In this document: positions 4,741 to 44,183 of the stretch, piece by piece
Layout of the letters: every line of letters begins with the position of its first letter
Numbering within the stretch: the first letter of the stretch is position 1
Assembly: GCF_017833525.1 (NCBI RefSeq)
Contig: NZ_JAFICD010000002.1
Location: 682,001-746,000, forward strand
Direction of reading: 5' to 3'
Length of the DNA stretch: 64,000 nucleotides
Origin: Duganella sp. 1411
Lineage (GTDB): Bacteria; Pseudomonadota; Gammaproteobacteria; Burkholderiales; Burkholderiaceae_D
Program-made: the position numbers and the translations under genes
Notes under the pieces: model-generated
What the model was told of the DNA's origin: nothing
The model's input: the letters and a program-made list of their open reading frames with translations, nothing else
Databases searched by the model: none

Positions 4741-7700
4741 ATGACACGCATCCTCGCCATCGTCCTCCTTTGCCTCGCGGCCTGCGCGCACGCCGTGCCG
4801 CGCGCGGCGCCGACGCGCGAGACGCGCGACCTCGCCGGCGAGTGGCGCTTCGCCATGGACCGCGACGACGAGGGCGTGGACCAGGCGTGGTTCACCCGCG
4901 ATCTGAAGGACGGCATCGCCCTCCCCGGCATCCTCCAGGCGCAAGGCTACGGCGACGACATCACCGCCAAGACGCCATGGGTGCTGTCGCTCTACGATAA
5001 GAACTGGGACCAGCGCGAAGACTACAAGACCCATACCGCCGCCGGCAACGTCAAAGTGCCCTTCCTCTCGCAGCCGCCCAAACACTATCTCGGCGCGGCC
5101 TGGTACCAGCGCGACATCGACGTGCCGGCCGCCTGGCGCGGCAAGCGCGTGGCCTTGTTCCTGGAGCGTCCGCGCTGGGGCTCGACCTTGTGGATCGACG
5201 GGCGCAAGGTCGGCTCCAATCTGAGTCTGGTGGCCGAACACGAATACGACCTGGGCCTGCTGGCGCCGGGCCGGCACCGCGTCTCCGTGCGCGTCGACAA
5301 CCGCATGCTGATGCCCTACCGGCCCGACGCCCACAGCGTCTCCGACTCCCTCGGCATGAGCTGGAACGGCATCGTCGGCAAAATCGAGTTGCGCGCCAGC
5401 TCGCCGGTGTGGTTGGACGACGCGCAGGTCTACCCCGACGTGAAGACGAAAACGGCGCGCGTCAAAATCAGCATCGGCAACGCCGGCGGCCGCGCCGGCG
5501 GCGGCACGCTGATGGCCAACGGCGTGGCATACAAAGTGGAGTGGAGCGCCCAGGGCGGCAGCGTCGACATCAAGGTGCGCTTCCCGGCGAACACGCCGAC
5601 GTGGGATGAATTCACTCCGGCGCTGCAAACCATCCGCCTCCAGCTCAATGGCGCGGGCGCCGCCGACGCGCGCGACGTCAGCTTCGGCTTCGCGCAGATC
5701 GCGGCCAAGGGCAACCAGTTCCTGCTAAACGGGCGTCCGCTGTTCTTGCGCGGCACCCACCACGGCGGCGACTTCCCGCTGACCGGCTATCCGCCGACCG
5801 ACATCGCCTACTGGCGCAAGATCATCCAGATCAACAAGGACTGGGGCATCAACCACATACGCTTCCACTCCTTCTGCCCGCCGGAAGCGGCGTTCCAGGC
5901 GGCCGATGAATTGGGCGTGTACCTGCAGCCGGAACCGGGCATGTGGAACGAGATCTCGCCCGGCACGCCGATGGACAAGATGCTGTACCAGGAAACCGAA
6001 CGCATGATCAAGGCCTACGGCAATCATCCGTCCTTCATCCTGTTCAGTCCCGCCAACGAGCCCAAAGGCCGCTGGAAGGAAGCCTTCGACGCCTGGATCG
6101 CCCACTACCGCAAGGCCGATCCGCGCCGGCTGTACTCCAACGGCACCGGCCACACCGAGAAGGAAGTCCCCGGCCTGGCCGACGGCACCGACTTCCTGTC
6201 GATGCAGCGCATCGGCCCCAAGCCGCTGCGCGGCGAAAAAGGCTGGTTCGGCCGCGACTACGGCGCCTCGCTGGCCGGCGTCAACGTGCCGGTGGTGTCG
6301 CACGAGACGGGCCAGTGGGCGGCCTATCCCGACTACGACGTCATCGACAAATTCCGCGGCTACCTGCGGCCCGGGAACTACGAGATCTTCCGCGACTCGC
6401 TGGCCCGCCACGGCATGGCGGCGCGCGACAAGGACTTCGCCTGGGCCTCGGGCAAATTCCAGGTGCAGGCCTACAAGGAGGAGATAGAGGCCAACCTGCG
6501 CACGCCCGGCTTGATGGGCTATCAGCTGCTCGACCTGCACGACTATCTGGGCCAGGGCACGGCGCTGGTGGGCATCCTGGACACGTTCTGGGAGCCGAAA
6601 GGCTACGCCACCGCCGAGGAGTTCCGCCGCTTTAACGGCCGCACCGTGCCGCTGGCGCGCCTGCTCAAGCGCACCTGGACCACCGACGAAACGCTGACGG
6701 CGGAGGTGGAGATCGCCCACTTCGGCGCCGCGCCGCTGACCGATGCCCAACCGTGGTGGAAGCTGATCGACGCCACCGGCCGCGTCGCCGCCGGCGGGGA
6801 CTTCGCTCGCCGCACCATCGGCATCGGCAAGAACATCCCGCTCGGGCAGATCCGGTTGCCGTTGGCGGAGCTGGCGGCGCCGCAGGCTTATCACCTGCAG
6901 GTCGGCGTCGGCGCCGCCACCGATACGCTGGCGGAGAACGACTGGAGCATCTGGCTCTACCCCGCGAAAATCAGCGCGCCGGAACCGGCCGACGTGCTGG
7001 TCACGCACAGCTGGCAGGCCGCCGGGAGGCGCCTGGCGCGCGGCGGCAAAGTGCTGTTCCTGCCGCTGGCGTCGGACCTGGACTGGAGCGGCCCGCCGCT
7101 CGACAGCGTGCCGGTGTTCTGGAACCGCCTGATGAATCCCGCGTGGAGCCGCACGCTGGGCGTCTGGATCGACAACAAGCATCCGGCGCTGACACAGTTC
7201 CCCACCGACCGTTTCAACGATTGGCAATGGTCGGAGCTGATCAAAGGTACGCGCACGGTCAATCTGGACCGGCTGCCGCCGGCGCTGCAACCCATCGTGC
7301 AGCCGGTCGACGACTGGAACCGCAACTTCAAACTGGGCCTGCTGCTGGAGGCGAGGGTCGGCGACGGCAGGCTGATGGTCGCCAGTCCGGACCTGGAAAC
7401 CGATCTGGATAAGCGTGTGGTCGCGCGCCAGCTGCGCAAATCGGTGCTCGACTACATGGCCAGCGACAGCTTCAATCCGCAGACGTCGATCAGCGTCGCC
7501 GAATTCCGCAAGGCCTTGTTCGATACGCAGGTGATGAAGAAGCTGGGCGCAAAGGCCGACGGCGGCAACAACCCCGCCTACGCCATCGACGGCGATCCGA
7601 ACACCTTCTGGACGGCCGGTACGCAAGCGCAGGCGCGCACGCCGCAAGCGCTGACGCTGGGCTTCCCGGCGCCGGCATCGTTCTCCGGGCTGTTGCTGAT

Positions 7701-8049
7701 GCCGCGCCAGAATCACCGCGACCATGAAGGCGACGTGCGCGAGTACCTGATCGAAACCAGCGACGACGGCGACAACTGGCGCGAACTCAAACGCGGCGCG
7801 CTGGTGTCCACGTACGATCAGCAGCGGATTGAATTTGGCGGGAATGTCAGCGCGCGCTGGCTGCGCTTCACGGCGCTGAGTGGCTTCGGCGGCGACAACA
7901 CCGCCGCCATCGCCGAACTTGCGGTGCTTTACACCGGCGTGCCGCTACCGGAAAACAGCGGCGGCGTGACGTATCGGCGCGTGCGCTCGGCATCGAGCGA
8001 TATCGACGAGAATATCGCGCCGGCCACGGAGAAACCACCGGCGCGCTGA
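4741..8049 (+). CDS. Glycoside hydrolase family 2 protein with C-terminal discoidin-like domain
   Basis: A secreted or lipid-anchored exo-glycosidase of 1102 residues. The signal is MTRILAIVLLCLAACAHA, with LAAC as a possible lipobox. An N-terminal GH2 jelly-roll and Ig-like region is followed by a TIM barrel carrying the acid/base Glu440 (FSPANEPKG) and probable nucleophile Glu522 (VVSHETGQW). Residues about 940-1080 look like an F5/8 type C carbohydrate-binding domain (YAIDGDPNTFWTAG, SDDGDNWREL). Beta-galactosidase, mannosidase or glucuronidase activity cannot be told apart by eye. It stands alone, starts after the divergent patatin gene, and is followed by a repeat pair. Confidence 0.88.
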   Translation: MTRILAIVLLCLAACAHAVPRAAPTRETRDLAGEWRFAMDRDDEGVDQAWFTRDLKDGIALPGILQAQGYGDDITAKTPWVLSLYDKNWDQREDYKTHTAAGNVKVPFLSQPPKHYLGAAWYQRDIDVPAAWRGKRVALFLERPRWGSTLWIDGRKVGSNLSLVAEHEYDLGLLAPGRHRVSVRVDNRMLMPYRPDAHSVSDSLGMSWNGIVGKIELRASSPVWLDDAQVYPDVKTKTARVKISIGNAGGRAGGGTLMANGVAYKVEWSAQGGSVDIKVRFPANTPTWDEFTPALQTIRLQLNGAGAADARDVSFGFAQIAAKGNQFLLNGRPLFLRGTHHGGDFPLTGYPPTDIAYWRKIIQINKDWGINHIRFHSFCPPEAAFQAADELGVYLQPEPGMWNEISPGTPMDKMLYQETERMIKAYGNHPSFILFSPANEPKGRWKEAFDAWIAHYRKADPRRLYSNGTGHTEKEVPGLADGTDFLSMQRIGPKPLRGEKGWFGRDYGASLAGVNVPVVSHETGQWAAYPDYDVIDKFRGYLRPGNYEIFRDSLARHGMAARDKDFAWASGKFQVQAYKEEIEANLRTPGLMGYQLLDLHDYLGQGTALVGILDTFWEPKGYATAEEFRRFNGRTVPLARLLKRTWTTDETLTAEVEIAHFGAAPLTDAQPWWKLIDATGRVAAGGDFARRTIGIGKNIPLGQIRLPLAELAAPQAYHLQVGVGAATDTLAENDWSIWLYPAKISAPEPADVLVTHSWQAAGRRLARGGKVLFLPLASDLDWSGPPLDSVPVFWNRLMNPAWSRTLGVWIDNKHPALTQFPTDRFNDWQWSELIKGTRTVNLDRLPPALQPIVQPVDDWNRNFKLGLLLEARVGDGRLMVASPDLETDLDKRVVARQLRKSVLDYMASDSFNPQTSISVAEFRKALFDTQVMKKLGAKADGGNNPAYAIDGDPNTFWTAGTQAQARTPQALTLGFPAPASFSGLLLMPRQNHRDHEGDVREYLIETSDDGDNWRELKRGALVSTYDQQRIEFGGNVSARWLRFTALSGFGGDNTAAIAELAVLYTGVPLPENSGGVTYRRVRSASSDIDENIAPATEKPPAR

Positions 8050-8083
8050 TTCGATCGCTCTTCGAGGGCCGCCGACGGAGCAT

Positions 8084-8200
8084 GGCGGATTACGCTACGC
8101 TAATCCGCCCTACGTGGCTCCCCGCGGCGCATACGTTCGTGCTCGCCCGTTTGAACATGGAAACACGTAGGGCGGATTAGGCGGAACGCCGTAATCCGCC
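8084..8200. repeat. Inverted pair of GTAGGGCGGATTA repeats (copies 2 and 3)
   Basis: Copy 2 (8084-8113) reads GGCGGATTACGC to CCGCCCTAC, i.e. in minus orientation. Copy 3 (8168-8200) begins GTAGGGCGGATTAGGCGG in plus orientation. Head-to-head they form a BIME-like composite between the GH2 gene and the convergent hydrolase gene. It could fold as one long hairpin and act as a bidirectional transcript end. Confidence 0.8.
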
Positions 8201-8227
8201 ATCTATGAGCCGCCAGAGGCGCGTCAT

Positions 8228-9010
8228 TTACGGCTCCAGGCACGCCTCGAGCGACAACTCCAGCAACGGGAAATGCCCGGTCGGCAGCGTGCGGATGACG
8301 GCCTGCGGGAACACCTCGCGCCAAATGTCGCCATCGCGCGCCGGATCGATCATCGGATCGAACTCGCCGAAAATCACCGACACCGGCCCCTGATACGGAC
8401 TGCGCGCCGGCACCTGCGCATTGGCGGCAAAATCATCCGACGTCGCCACCGACGACGGCCCGTCGAACACGCCCGGTTGCCGCAGCAGATACGCGAACAC
8501 CTGCGGCTCGTCGCCCGAGTTCGGGCCGAAATACAGCGACGTCACGTTCGGCAGCAGCCACAAGGCGCCCATCACGTCCCAGAAGCGCGCGCGCCCCGGC
8601 GCGGCCTCGTAATCCGCCAGCGCCGCCACCAGCTTGCCGGCGTTGGCGTCGGCCGCGTGCAACGCCAGGCCATGGCGCGCCAGCCGCAGCGCGGCTTCCT
8701 CGGGATCGAACGTCGGCGCCAGCAGCACGATGCGGGCGATCGACTCCGGCATCTGCCGCGCCAGGTGCAGCGCCAGATGGGCGCCGAAGGAGCTGGCCAT
8801 GATCGTCATCGGTCCGCCGAGCATGTCGACGCTGAGCCGGAACTCGGCCACCGTCGCCGCCAGCAGGTCCTGATACGGCCGCGTGGCGCACGAGACGGCC
8901 GACGGCTGCTGCCACCAGTGCACCTGGTCGGCGTCGGGATAGCGCTGGCGCTCGAACGCCGTGCCCAGACCCGGCCCGCCATGCAAATAAAATATCGTCG
9001 GTGGCTGCAC
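8228..9010 (-). CDS. Alpha/beta-fold hydrolase
   Basis: A cytoplasmic alpha/beta hydrolase of 260 residues. It shows the oxyanion HGG near the start (FYLHGGPGLGTAFE), a nucleophile elbow ASSFGAH with the catalytic serine, the acid in FGEFDPMIDP and the histidine in PTGHFPLLE. The HGGPG start resembles prolyl iminopeptidase-type enzymes, but the substrate is not predictable. The start at 9010 follows a minus-strand GGAGG about ten bases upstream. It is divergent from the M24 peptidase at 9085, so the 74-base gap holds both promoters. Confidence 0.8.
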   Translation of the reverse strand: MQPPTIFYLHGGPGLGTAFERQRYPDADQVHWWQQPSAVSCATRPYQDLLAATVAEFRLSVDMLGGPMTIMASSFGAHLALHLARQMPESIARIVLLAPTFDPEEAALRLARHGLALHAADANAGKLVAALADYEAAPGRARFWDVMGALWLLPNVTSLYFGPNSGDEPQVFAYLLRQPGVFDGPSSVATSDDFAANAQVPARSPYQGPVSVIFGEFDPMIDPARDGDIWREVFPQAVIRTLPTGHFPLLELSLEACLEP

Positions 9011-41252: not shown

Positions 41253-41310
41253 CCCGCCTATCCCCGCCCCGGGCCACGCAACCACAGAGCAAAAAAAGCC
41301 ACGAAAACAC

Positions 41311-41344
41311 GTAGGGCGGATTAGGCGGAACGCCGTAATCCGCC
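41311..41344 (+). repeat. GTAGGGCGGATTA repeat, copy 6
   Basis: Single copy of the family, GTAGGGCGGATTAGGCGG to TAATCCGCC, between fliD and the CoA-transferase gene. Nearly identical to copy 3. Confidence 0.85.
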
Positions 41345-41377: not shown

Positions 41378-42760
41378 TCAAAACCCCGCCGGCGACGAAC
41401 CGAGCGAAGCCGCCGGCCGGTCCCAAGCCATCGCCGCTCCGCCAACGAGCACCGGCGGCAACAATCGCCGCGCCGCCCCCCACTCGGTATGCTCGATGAC
41501 CGGCGACAGATCAGCCTCGCCGGCGGCGGCCAGCGGCTGCGCGCCGGCCTCGGGCGCGAATCCGGCCAACAACCCGGCGGTGCGCGCCAGCGACAAGCGC
41601 GCCCGCATCGAGCGGCCGTCGGCAACCCGGAACAACCCCCCCCGCACCACCGCCGCCGCCATCAAATACCCGGTGGCGTGATCGAGCGCCTGCACCGGCA
41701 ACGGCACCGGCTTGCCGGCGCCCCGCATCCGCATCCCGTGCTCGGCGATGCCGCAACTCATCTGCACCAGACTATCGAAGCCGCGCCTGTCGGCCAGCGG
41801 CCCCGTCCAGCCATAGGCGTCCAGCGCCACATCGATCAAGCCGGGATTCAGCGCCCGGCGGAATTGCTCGCCGTAGCCCAGCCGCTCCAGCGCGGCGGGA
41901 CGGTAGCCGTGCACCAGCACGTCGGCCCGCGCCAGCAAATCCTCGAAGACGGCGCGGTCGGCCGCCTGACGCAAATCCAGCCGCGCGCAGCGCTTGCCCA
42001 GCGTCACCTCGGGAATCGCGCCGGGCTCGTTCCAGCTTGGCGGATCGATACGCAGCACGTCGGCGCCATAGCCGGCCAGAAAGCGCGTGGCGACCGGCCC
42101 GGCCAGCACCCGTGTCAAATCGAGCACCTTCAACCCCGCCAGCGGACGCGCGGCGGTGGCGGCGCGGGGCCAGCCCTGGCCAGCGCCGGCGCCTTCGAGC
42201 GGCCGCGCCTCCACCGCGATCAGCGGCTCGGCGGCGACGGCGACGCCCTGCGGATGCGCCGCCCACGCGGCCGCCGAGCGCATCATCGCCGCGCAGCCAC
42301 CGTTGCCGACCACCGCAGCCTCCAACTCCTCGCCGCGCCATCCGGCGACGGCGCGCGCGACGGCCTCGCGGTCCACTGCGCAACCGAGCACCGCCAGCGC
42401 GGCGTCGCGGTGATGGACGGCGTTGGTGTGCAGGCGTATCCAGCCGTCGGCGGTGGCGTAATCGCCGGCCACGGCGTCCCACAGCGGCGGGCGTTCCCAG
42501 CCGATCGGGTGGATCGACCAACCGAACCACAGCGACGCCAAGCGGCGGTCGACCCGCACCGGCGCCGCATCGCCACCAAGCGCGACGATCAATTGGCGCA
42601 ACGCCAATCCCGCCGCGCCGACCGACGCCGCGGCCAGATCGGTCACGGCGTAGTACGATGGCAGCGCACCGGCGCCATCGAAACGGACGGCGTCAACAAC
42701 GCCGCCGGGCAAATCCAGCTCCGACGAAACGGCTTGCAACATATGACGAGAGACAGACAT
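41378..42760 (-). CDS. Family III (CaiB/BaiF) CoA-transferase with reversed half order
   Basis: 460 residues. The C-terminal part holds the usual family III opening, LAGLKVLDLTRVLAGPVATRFLAGYGADVLRI, then VLVHGYRPAALERLGYG and LDAYGWTGPLADRRGFDSLVQ, where the Asp of GFD is the likely acyl-accepting residue. The first 200 residues look like the normally C-terminal half (WIRLHTNAVHHRDAALAVLG, GGCAAMMRSAAAWAAHPQGVAVA). So the halves appear permuted or only partly duplicated. The start at 42760 has AGGAG. It is divergent from an HTH-citrate-synthase gene. Substrate unknown. Confidence 0.8.
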   Translation of the reverse strand: MSVSRHMLQAVSSELDLPGGVVDAVRFDGAGALPSYYAVTDLAAASVGAAGLALRQLIVALGGDAAPVRVDRRLASLWFGWSIHPIGWERPPLWDAVAGDYATADGWIRLHTNAVHHRDAALAVLGCAVDREAVARAVAGWRGEELEAAVVGNGGCAAMMRSAAAWAAHPQGVAVAAEPLIAVEARPLEGAGAGQGWPRAATAARPLAGLKVLDLTRVLAGPVATRFLAGYGADVLRIDPPSWNEPGAIPEVTLGKRCARLDLRQAADRAVFEDLLARADVLVHGYRPAALERLGYGEQFRRALNPGLIDVALDAYGWTGPLADRRGFDSLVQMSCGIAEHGMRMRGAGKPVPLPVQALDHATGYLMAAAVVRGGLFRVADGRSMRARLSLARTAGLLAGFAPEAGAQPLAAAGEADLSPVIEHTEWGAARRLLPPVLVGGAAMAWDRPAASLGSSPAGF

Positions 42761-42805
42761 AAAAACTCCTGAAAACTCCCCACAACCAAGGATCCACGTA
42801 TCCAC

Positions 42806-42843
42806 GTAGGGCGGATTAGCGGGCAATGCCCGCCAATCCGCCC
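42806..42843 (+). repeat. GTAGGGCGGATTA repeat, copy 7, with degenerate remnant
   Basis: GTAGGGCGGATTAGCGGGCA to CCGCCAATCCGCCC. A degenerate second half continues to about 42910 (GGCGGCACGCCGTAATCGGCC). It lies in the 259-base divergent gap of the CoA-transferase/citrate-synthase pair, upstream of the operator-like repeats. Confidence 0.75.
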
Positions 42844-42981
42844 CGGGGGCACGTCGATGGCACGGCCTACCTGCCGGTAGGCCTTGAGAGGCGGCACGCC
42901 GTAATCGGCCAAGCTCCGCCGGCGGCGCGTAACAGATCCCGCGCCCCACGAAAACCAGCTTAGGCCCCGCAAGGCCGCAAC

Positions 42982-43005
42982 GTCAATCTTGACTTGAAGT
43001 GTCAA
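42982..43005. promoter_or_regulatory. GTCAA/TTGAC repeat cluster before the HTH-citrate synthase
   Basis: GTCAATCTTGAC (42982-42993) and TTGACTTGAAGTGTCAA (42989-43005) share a TTGAC arm, giving three alternating half-sites 14 bases before the ATG. This is a plausible operator, and the protein it precedes has its own DNA-binding domain. Confidence 0.45.
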
Positions 43006-43019
43006 CATAGGAAGCGCAA

Positions 43020-44183
43020 ATGGTCTGGATGACGGCCGCCGAAGCCCTAACCATCTTGAATGTCCGCCCGCAAACGCTGTACGCCAACGTCAGCCGGGGC
43101 AAGATCCGCGCCAAGGCCGACGACGCCGATCCGCGCCGCAGCCTCTACCACCGCGACGACGTGCTGCGCATGGCAAGGCGCGCCAACGGCCGCCGCAAGA
43201 TCGACGCCGTGTCCGCACAAGCCATGCAGTGGGGCGACCCGGTGCTGCCGTCGTCGATCTCGACCACGGCCGACGGCAGGCTGCTGTATCGCGGGCAGGA
43301 CGCCGCCGTGCTGGCCGCGTCGGCGACGCTGGAGGAAGTCGCCGCGCTGTTATGGGAATGCGACGCGTCGCGGATCCGCGCCGCCCTGCCCGCCAGGCAC
43401 GATGCTCCGCCAGCCGCCGCCGCACCAACCAGCTTCCTCGGCGCCTGCCTGTCCAGCCTGGCGACGCTGGCCGCCAGCGATGCGCCCTCGCTGGCCCGAC
43501 CGGCGGACGAACTGCGCGCCGACGCCGCCACCATCCTGGCCACACTGACCGAAACGGTCGCCGGCCCGCCGCCGGACGGCGCCGCCGGCCTGACCATCAG
43601 CGCCCGCCTGGCCCACGCCTGGGGCCGCCCGAACCAGGAAGACCTGATCCGCCGCGCGCTGGTGCTGATGGCCGACCACGAACTGAACGCCTCCACCTTC
43701 GCCGCCCGCGTCGCCGTCTCAACCGGCGCCTCGCTGGCGGCCGGCGTGCTGGCCGGACTCGCCACGCTCAGCGGTCCGCTGCACGGCGGCGCCTCGGCGC
43801 AATTCGCCCGCCTGCTCGCGCTGGCCAGGCAGACCGGCGCGCGCGACGCCGTCGCGCAATGGCTGGCCGGCGGGAGGCCGCTGCCCGGCTTCGGCCACCC
43901 GCTGTATCCGGAAGGCGACCCGCGCGCCCGCGCCCTGCTGGAAATGCTGCCGAAAACACAACCCCACGCGGCGCTGGCCGCCGAGGCCGAGGCGCAGGCG
44001 GGCGAGCTGCCCACGGTCGATTTCGCGCTGCCGCTGCTGGCGGCGACGTGCGGCCTGCCGGACGACGCGCCGTTGATCTTGTTTACGTTGGGGAGATGCG
44101 TCGGCTGGCTGGCGCATGCGTTGGAGCAGGCGCAAGCCAACCGGCCGATCAGGCCGCGCGCCCGGTATGTCGGGCCGGCCTAA
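43020..44183 (+). CDS. Citrate-synthase-like protein with N-terminal DNA-binding domain
   Basis: 387 residues. Residues 1-55 look like an excisionase/MerR-type helix-turn-helix (MTAAEALTILNVRPQTLYANVSRGKIRAK). The rest is citrate synthase: the active His in GPLHGGASAQ, the second His in GFGHPLYPEGDPRARAL (GHPLY where GHRVY is usual), Asp in TVDFALPLL and RCVGWLAHALEQ. All three catalytic positions therefore remain. ATG with AGGAA. Divergent from a CoA-transferase; similar pairs occur in other Burkholderiales (from memory) but have no assigned role. It may be a metabolite-sensing regulator, an acyl-citrate synthase, or both. Confidence 0.82.
   Translation: MVWMTAAEALTILNVRPQTLYANVSRGKIRAKADDADPRRSLYHRDDVLRMARRANGRRKIDAVSAQAMQWGDPVLPSSISTTADGRLLYRGQDAAVLAASATLEEVAALLWECDASRIRAALPARHDAPPAAAAPTSFLGACLSSLATLAASDAPSLARPADELRADAATILATLTETVAGPPPDGAAGLTISARLAHAWGRPNQEDLIRRALVLMADHELNASTFAARVAVSTGASLAAGVLAGLATLSGPLHGGASAQFARLLALARQTGARDAVAQWLAGGRPLPGFGHPLYPEGDPRARALLEMLPKTQPHAALAAEAEAQAGELPTVDFALPLLAATCGLPDDAPLILFTLGRCVGWLAHALEQAQANRPIRPRARYVGPA

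Follow-up and report, generated by a model that had tools for sequence, protein, structure and literature searches.

A 64,000-nucleotide stretch of the genome of Duganella sp. 1411 (contig NZ_JAFICD010000002.1, positions 682,001 to 746,000; referred to here as the window) contains a divergent gene pair. A class III coenzyme A (CoA)-transferase gene on the reverse strand (41378–42760) faces a gene on the forward strand (43020–44183) for a 387-aa fusion of a winged helix–turn–helix (HTH) domain with a complete citrate synthase domain, designated HTH-CS. The surrounding genome comprises 7.63 Mb, and its closest named relatives in our scan were Duganella and Rugamonas. The comparative data make it highly probable that HTH-CS is an autoregulated one-component transcription factor, most likely a repressor, that uses the citrate synthase fold as its ligand sensor and acts at a predicted operator situated between the two genes.

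The architecture of HTH-CS, with a DNA-binding domain and a ligand-type domain in a single chain, is that of a one-component transcription factor. The Pfam profile Citrate_synt (PF00285) matches residues 72–380 (43233–44159, forward strand, as for all HTH-CS coordinates) with an E value of 1.6e-62 and over profile positions 4–357 of 357, and HTH_17 matches residues 3–54 (43026–43181) with an E value of 2.2e-5 and 25.1 bits, below its 27-bit cut-off. HTH_17 was matched by 13 of 14 family members at E≤0.01, and MerR_1 by nine. The AlphaFold2 model (mean predicted local distance difference test score, pLDDT, of 82; low confidence at residues 58–75 and 380–387) contains a winged helix, made up of helices 6–13 and 17–25 and strands 31–33 and 41–44, then a helix at residues 45–69 and finally the citrate synthase domain. 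With this model, Foldseek retrieved methylcitrate and citrate synthases, the best match being the methylcitrate synthase of M. tuberculosis (E 2.9e-14, TM 0.67).

The residues that we take to be catalytic were located by alignment at His255 (motif LHGG, 43782–43784), His293 (GFGHPLY, 43896–43898) and Asp334 (TVDFA, 44019–44021), and Arg302, Arg359 and Arg378, presumably ligands of oxaloacetate, are present as well. An earlier annotation of this DNA (the original prediction) had stated that the protein keeps all three catalytic positions and begins with a DNA-binding domain, and both statements hold. In an alignment of 96 HTH-CS rows, in which one gene is counted twice (L077 is the same as L130, both from genome G100), the three arginines are retained in 96, 95 and 96 rows, respectively. 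At least one catalytic residue has been lost in L129, L154, L171 and L175–L181, and L129 and L171 nevertheless retain the operator. That some members have lost catalytic residues and still keep the arginines and the HTH domain is what would be expected under selection for ligand binding, with turnover no longer required. Mean identity among 27 orthologues is 89% in the HTH core, 59% in citrate synthase residues 72–205 and 79% in residues 206–386.

These data also bear on the possibility that HTH-CS is a trigger enzyme, i.e. an active enzyme of the (methyl)citrate synthase type that doubles as a regulator, just as PutA is both enzyme and repressor. An intact triad in 86 of the 96 rows and the near invariance of the arginines would agree with such a role. 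The losses of catalytic residues just listed, including the two in members with an operator, argue against it, as do the NCBIfam scores of HTH-CS, which are far below the cut-offs (149.1 versus 421.3 bits for TIGR01800 and 147.6 versus 332 bits for PRK12350), and the presence of two other Citrate_synt proteins in the genome. We regard this explanation as rather unlikely.

The predicted operator, TCAATCTTGACTTGAAGTGTCAA, has the pattern TCAA-N2-TTGA-N9-TCAA and occupies 42983–43005 on the forward strand. The GTCAA and TTGAC half-sites to which the original prediction drew attention are present at 42982–43005, where they form parts of this single element. A search of the entire 7.63-Mb genome for this 23-bp pattern gave a single match, and the reversed pattern, used as a control, gave none; these counts, and a Markov expectation of 0.0, rule out chance as the origin of the half-sites. 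It is apparent that the operator is conserved in all 27 Duganella-type loci (the window's genome and L005–L030), the promoter alignment of which contains 12 adjacent invariant columns. Nine more distant relatives fetched from among the matches of the same search (L069–L075, L080 and L081) carry four exact operators and five with one mismatch. The operator was not found in the stretches around the genome's two other citrate synthase genes (L001 and L002). In two loci (L053, 5964–6700; L084, 5001–5730) an intact CoA-transferase gene is accompanied by a remnant of HTH-CS that lacks the central part of the gene, and the operator is still there in both.

A profile built from 14 HTH-CS members was used to search 398 sampled Pseudomonadota genomes at E≤1e-60, and 54 HTH-CS genes were found in 53 of them. 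With the window set aside, 53 loci (482,019 bp in total) were compared; an exact operator lies within 100 bp upstream of the start codon in 42 and at −2897, in an operon promoter, in one, and two further loci (L170 and L173) have an operator with one mismatch. No additional exact operator was found on either strand of these 482,019 bp, with 0.0 expected from Markov resampling; in the loci examined, the operator is located almost exclusively at HTH-CS genes. Alignment of the 42 upstream sites revealed a shared consensus, RTCAATCTTGATN6AATCAATAT, in which conservation extends to positions beyond the search pattern (T5 in 41 sites, C6 in 36, T11 in 41, A19 in 42 and T26 in 37). A stricter pattern, applied to all 398 genomes, identified 79 sites in 73 genomes, as compared with 10 for the reversed control, and 41 of the 79 are at HTH-CS genes (a hand count from the tables). 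Such a site is carried by 40 of the 53 HTH-CS genomes and by 33 of the 345 others (Fisher p 9.6e-24, from hand-counted values). Exactly one site is present in 38 of those 40 genomes, so that the regulator appears to be a local one.

The same arrangement was observed on plasmids and in other phyla. Thirteen plasmid loci, fetched out of 76 matched records, derive from Ewingella, two Caballeronia, Pararhizobium, Ensifer, Agrobacterium, Pseudoroseomonas, Thioclava, a Comamonadaceae bacterium, Deinococcus (L093), two Burkholderia and Paraburkholderia. All 13 contain an exact operator, which in 11 is directly upstream of HTH-CS. The two Burkholderia plasmids differ in that an operon ends with HTH-CS, and the operator is found at the divergent promoter of that operon, about 2.9 kb upstream. 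Among 149 genomes from the phylum of a Candidatus Microthrix genome, which we take to be Actinomycetota, HTH-containing matches at E≤1e-40 were obtained in 16, and the operator is exact in seven of these loci and has one mismatch in two. The phyla with HTH-CS and its operator number at least three: Pseudomonadota, Actinomycetota and Deinococcota.

HTH-CS is constant while its divergent partner changes. Across the 53 survey loci, the gene directly divergent from HTH-CS at a distance of up to 200 bp encodes a citrate synthase without an HTH domain (designated CS2) in 30, a CoA-transferase in four, a 2-hydroxyacid dehydrogenase in one and another gene in nine (prpB in two of these); in the other nine, the neighbour is non-divergent or was not resolved by the open reading frame (ORF) picker, which took antisense frames at several loci. 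By NCBIfam, PrpB (methylisocitrate lyase, above cut-off) is directly divergent from HTH-CS in L147, L150 and L152. Two loci encode PrpC (L147 and L153) and one encodes PrpF (L169), with prpC and prpF situated farther from HTH-CS in L153 and L169. A major facilitator superfamily (MFS) transporter is the partner in seven of the nine more distant relatives (judged by eye, with L069 tested and the tree label of L075 assumed), an MFS transporter and a 2-hydroxyacid dehydrogenase occupy this position at some of the plasmid loci, and in Deinococcus the partner is annotated as pyruvate carboxyltransferase. In eight of the 16 actinobacterial genomes, a match to an HTH-less citrate synthase is divergent within about 310 bp, as read from the coordinates. 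An ordinary second citrate synthase is insufficient as a description of HTH-CS, as it leaves the HTH domain, the operator and the changing divergent partners unexplained.

It had been proposed in the original prediction that the two proteins could be a metabolic enzyme set that senses its own acyl-CoA state, which we take as a pair dedicated to the metabolism of the CoA-transferase. Co-occurrence of the two genes in other genomes, on which that proposal depended, was indeed observed: among 148 related genomes, all 27 with a Duganella-type HTH-CS also have the CoA-transferase, and the pair is found again in Ewingella as well as in the four survey loci. Most of the surveyed HTH-CS genes, however, diverge from something else, above all CS2, and the 32 CoA-transferase orthologues comprise 27 with HTH-CS, one beside a remnant (G025) and four without it (G020, G041, G049 and G081); the operator is absent from three of these last four loci. 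Since the CoA-transferase is just one among several partners, regulation by HTH-CS is not confined to CoA-transferase metabolism, and a dedicated pair must be considered unlikely. The further suggestion that the pair regulates its own genes fares much better; it receives strong comparative support from the conservation of the operator, the constancy of HTH-CS opposite changing partners and the site at the Burkholderia operon promoter. In L065–L067, which lack HTH-CS, what appears by eye to be a TonB-dependent receptor-like gene lies between the CoA-transferase gene and fliD (about 6400–8700).

The position of the operator suggests how such regulation might operate. All 27 Duganella-type loci contain a putative CoA-transferase promoter of the form TTGAC-N17/18-[TC]A[AC]GCT, represented in the window by a −35 element, TTGACG (42981–42986), and a −10 element, TAAGCT (42957–42962), both on the reverse strand. 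The outer half-site of the operator doubles as the TTGAC of this promoter, and in the window the operator ends 14 bp ahead of the start codon of HTH-CS, which means that occupancy should repress both genes. A dimer of the citrate synthase type would place its two winged HTH domains on the operator half-sites and thereby repress the divergent pair. A metabolite would then bind in the old active site and shift the dimer between its open and closed states, the DNA would be released and the neighbouring gene, for an enzyme of organic acid or CoA ester metabolism, would be switched on. Judged from the pocket and from the prp, citrate synthase and organic acid genes nearby, the candidate ligands are oxaloacetate, citrate and 2-methylcitrate, perhaps in combination with an acyl-CoA; a di- or tricarboxylate of this kind appears to fit at least as well as an acyl-CoA.

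An activator would also be conceivable at such a position, in that HTH-CS at the −35 element might, when ligand-bound, recruit polymerase or distort the promoter in the manner of MerR. The MerR-like HTH domain (with the MerR_1 matches noted above) and the contact of the operator with a −35 element at 17–18 bp spacing are in keeping with this idea. Promoters activated by MerR proteins have a spacing of 19–20 bp, however, whereas the spacing here is normal. In addition, the promoter elements of the CoA-transferase gene, including the −10 element, persist in L065–L067, as would be expected after loss of a repressor, and the operator is missing from L065 and L066 (all judged by eye). Activation is thus rather unlikely, and the overlap of the operator with the −35 element, together with the promoter elements kept in the loci that lack HTH-CS, favours repression relieved by ligand.

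It could also be asked whether the conserved element serves some other regulator, or functions in the RNA or as part of a promoter, without being bound by the HTH domain of HTH-CS. The element is near a start codon and contains a −35-like TTGAC, and nearly half of the stricter-pattern sites (38 of 79) are away from HTH-CS genes, all of which would suit this explanation. Against it, the element accompanies HTH-CS genes in several phyla, even where, as in Burkholderia, it is located about 2.9 kb away in an operon promoter; it is absent around the two other citrate synthase genes of the genome; and it differs in L178 and L179, in which the recognition region has changed. We regard this explanation as very improbable. 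In the HTH recognition region of L178 and L179, VGRKN replaces VSRG, and a different palindrome, TTTACA-N4-TGTAAA, was seen by eye upstream of the gene; these loci may represent a natural switch of specificity.

The commonest partner, CS2, was analysed further. The catalytic Asp is replaced by Glu in all 33 CS2 partners examined (for example in L050, 4833–5972, with the motif NVEFYT), and the two that were tested pass PRK12350, with 450.8 and 434.7 bits against a cut-off of 332. In a tree of 135 sequences, from which REF_L002 was left out, CS2 is monophyletic (support 0.993) and forms with HTH-CS a clade (0.994) apart from PrpC and the canonical citrate synthases, and the Duganella clade nests with Ewingella, Caballeronia and rhizobial members linked to CS2. 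A more comprehensive reading, which is speculative and in its entirety improbable, would be that a family of factors spanning at least three phyla arose once, when a citrate synthase had been duplicated and one of the copies acquired a winged HTH domain, and that CS2, the sister copy, is its commonest target. Because the active sites of citrate synthases are shared between subunits, CS2 and HTH-CS might combine into mixed dimers; the product of the controlled gene would then titrate its own repressor, and promoter activity would be coupled to substrate occupancy. In Duganella, the CoA-transferase would have replaced CS2.

Several observations weigh against the interpretation of HTH-CS as an autoregulated, ligand-responsive repressor. 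No recognisable operator was found in eight of the 53 survey loci (L154 and L175–L181), seven of which have a degraded active site, and in the 16 actinobacterial loci the operator is weak in four and absent in three. The number of genome-wide sites away from HTH-CS genes exceeds the 10 obtained with the reversed control. L067 (G049) has a CoA-transferase gene and no HTH-CS, and the operator is still present there. HTH-CS is monophyletic in the tree with the low support of 0.67, and catalysis remains compatible with most members, as judged from the number of intact triads. Some operator-like sites are situated in genomes in which no HTH-CS was detected at E≤1e-60 (G389:C7:247485, G244:C5:28740, G385:C1:1579212 and G183:C9:18423), and these could mark more distant members of the family.

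The divergent pair itself was confirmed, with one correction to the CoA-transferase gene, the start of which is ATG 42760 (460 aa). A 523-aa ORF that begins at GTG 42949 crosses a repeat insertion, its GTG sitting inside the inserted repeat; the true intergenic gap is therefore 42761–43019. This gap measures 259 bp, as opposed to about 87–106 bp in relatives (measured between alignment edges), and the repeat is absent from those shorter gaps. The core of the repeat, CGTAGGGCGGATTAG (42805–42819, forward strand), is inserted between the CoA-transferase promoter and the start codon; the genome contains 669 copies of this 15-mer and none of the reversed pattern. Unlike in the relatives compared, the gap and 5′ leader of the CoA-transferase gene are lengthened by the insertion in this genome. 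A second copy of the core is found at 41310–41324, and the repeat resembles a repetitive extragenic palindromic sequence (REP) or a miniature inverted-repeat transposable element (MITE).

The CoA-transferase had been described as permuted. The CoA_transf_3 profile matches residues 207–398 (41567–42142, reverse strand) with its positions 1–202, while the two other CoA_transf_3 proteins of the genome match positions 1–366. This N-terminal-type domain contains Asp360 (QALDHATGY; 41681–41683, reverse strand), which is invariant across 19 aligned orthologues and is a candidate for the catalytic aspartate, by analogy with formyl-CoA transferase; the protein in this respect agrees with class III (CaiB/BaiF) enzymes. 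It departs from their canonical order, in which the small domain follows the N-terminal domain. A profile of its N-terminal 200 residues, built from 12 homologues, was aligned with columns 188–290 of a canonical profile of 22 proteins (32 were extracted and 10 dropped for length), with an hhalign probability of 42% and an E value of 2.7e-4, and the N-terminus of one homologue aligns to canonical positions 176–330 (E 1.7e-4). Counting against permutation, the window protein itself (P0002) scored −1.4 bits (E 0.44) against the canonical columns, Pfam returned no match for the N-terminus and hhalign of the N-terminus against one canonical protein was negative; the structure model is poor (pLDDT 54). 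The resemblance of the N-terminus to canonical positions 176–330 is weak, and a rearranged or permuted domain order is likely, with moderate support.

Where the plasmid records are annotated, HTH-CS is called citrate synthase or citrate/2-methylcitrate synthase, and none of the open-access literature matches listed describes the fusion in a regulatory role. A study by Suvorova, Ravcheev and Gelfand (J Bacteriol, 2012) reportedly predicted new propionate regulators, one of them PrpQ, and might partly have predicted this family in some gammaproteobacteria. A term search of PMC5343134 found no mention. In Streptomyces coelicolor, SCO5831 and SCO5832 (citA3 and citA4) are adjacent putative citrate synthase genes, the intergenic region of which is bound by MtrA in electrophoretic mobility shift assays; the available portion of that paper treats both as citrate synthases and gives neither a regulatory role (PMC12323332). 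They are probably the actinobacterial HTH-CS/CS2 pair. The PrpR repressor of X. citri, encoded upstream of prpB, is compared by its authors with Salmonella PrpR, and its operator, GTTGCAA-N2-TTGCAAC, rules it out as a studied member of the HTH-CS family, as far as the accessible text goes (PMC12153269).

If the interpretation given here is correct, some of the proteins filed as citrate synthases would be regulators, HTH-CS genes being present in 53 of the 398 sampled Pseudomonadota genomes and in 16 of 149 genomes of the Candidatus Microthrix phylum, and metabolic reconstructions that count them as enzymes of the tricarboxylic acid (TCA) cycle may be wrong. The specificity of the operator would make the targets of HTH-CS predictable. 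Should the ligand prove to be oxaloacetate, citrate or 2-methylcitrate, HTH-CS would link the state of the TCA/methylcitrate node directly to transcription and could readily be used as a component of biosensors.

HTH-CS may be compared with three known groups of proteins. With the type II citrate and 2-methylcitrate synthases (PF00285, TIGR01800) it shares the whole domain, the predicted fold, the catalytic triad and the oxaloacetate arginines; it differs from them in its N-terminal winged HTH domain, the operator at its own promoter, its NCBIfam scores below cut-off and the loss of catalytic residues in some members. Proteins of the MerR/HTH_17 type (AlpA, excisionase and BldC-type) resemble it in the profiles that they match and in having a long helix after the winged HTH domain, but the C-terminus of HTH-CS is a citrate synthase fold rather than any known MerR effector domain. 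Regulators of the MocR/GabR type join an HTH domain to a whole pyridoxal phosphate-dependent aminotransferase fold that serves as sensor, and their targets are local and autoregulated. HTH-CS shares this layout of an HTH domain with an enzyme-fold sensor, as well as the predicted local and autoregulated targets, and differs in the fold, in the type of HTH and in its cross-phylum operator. One-component regulators with an enzyme fold are thus known, but a sensor with the citrate synthase fold and an operator conserved across phyla appears to be new.

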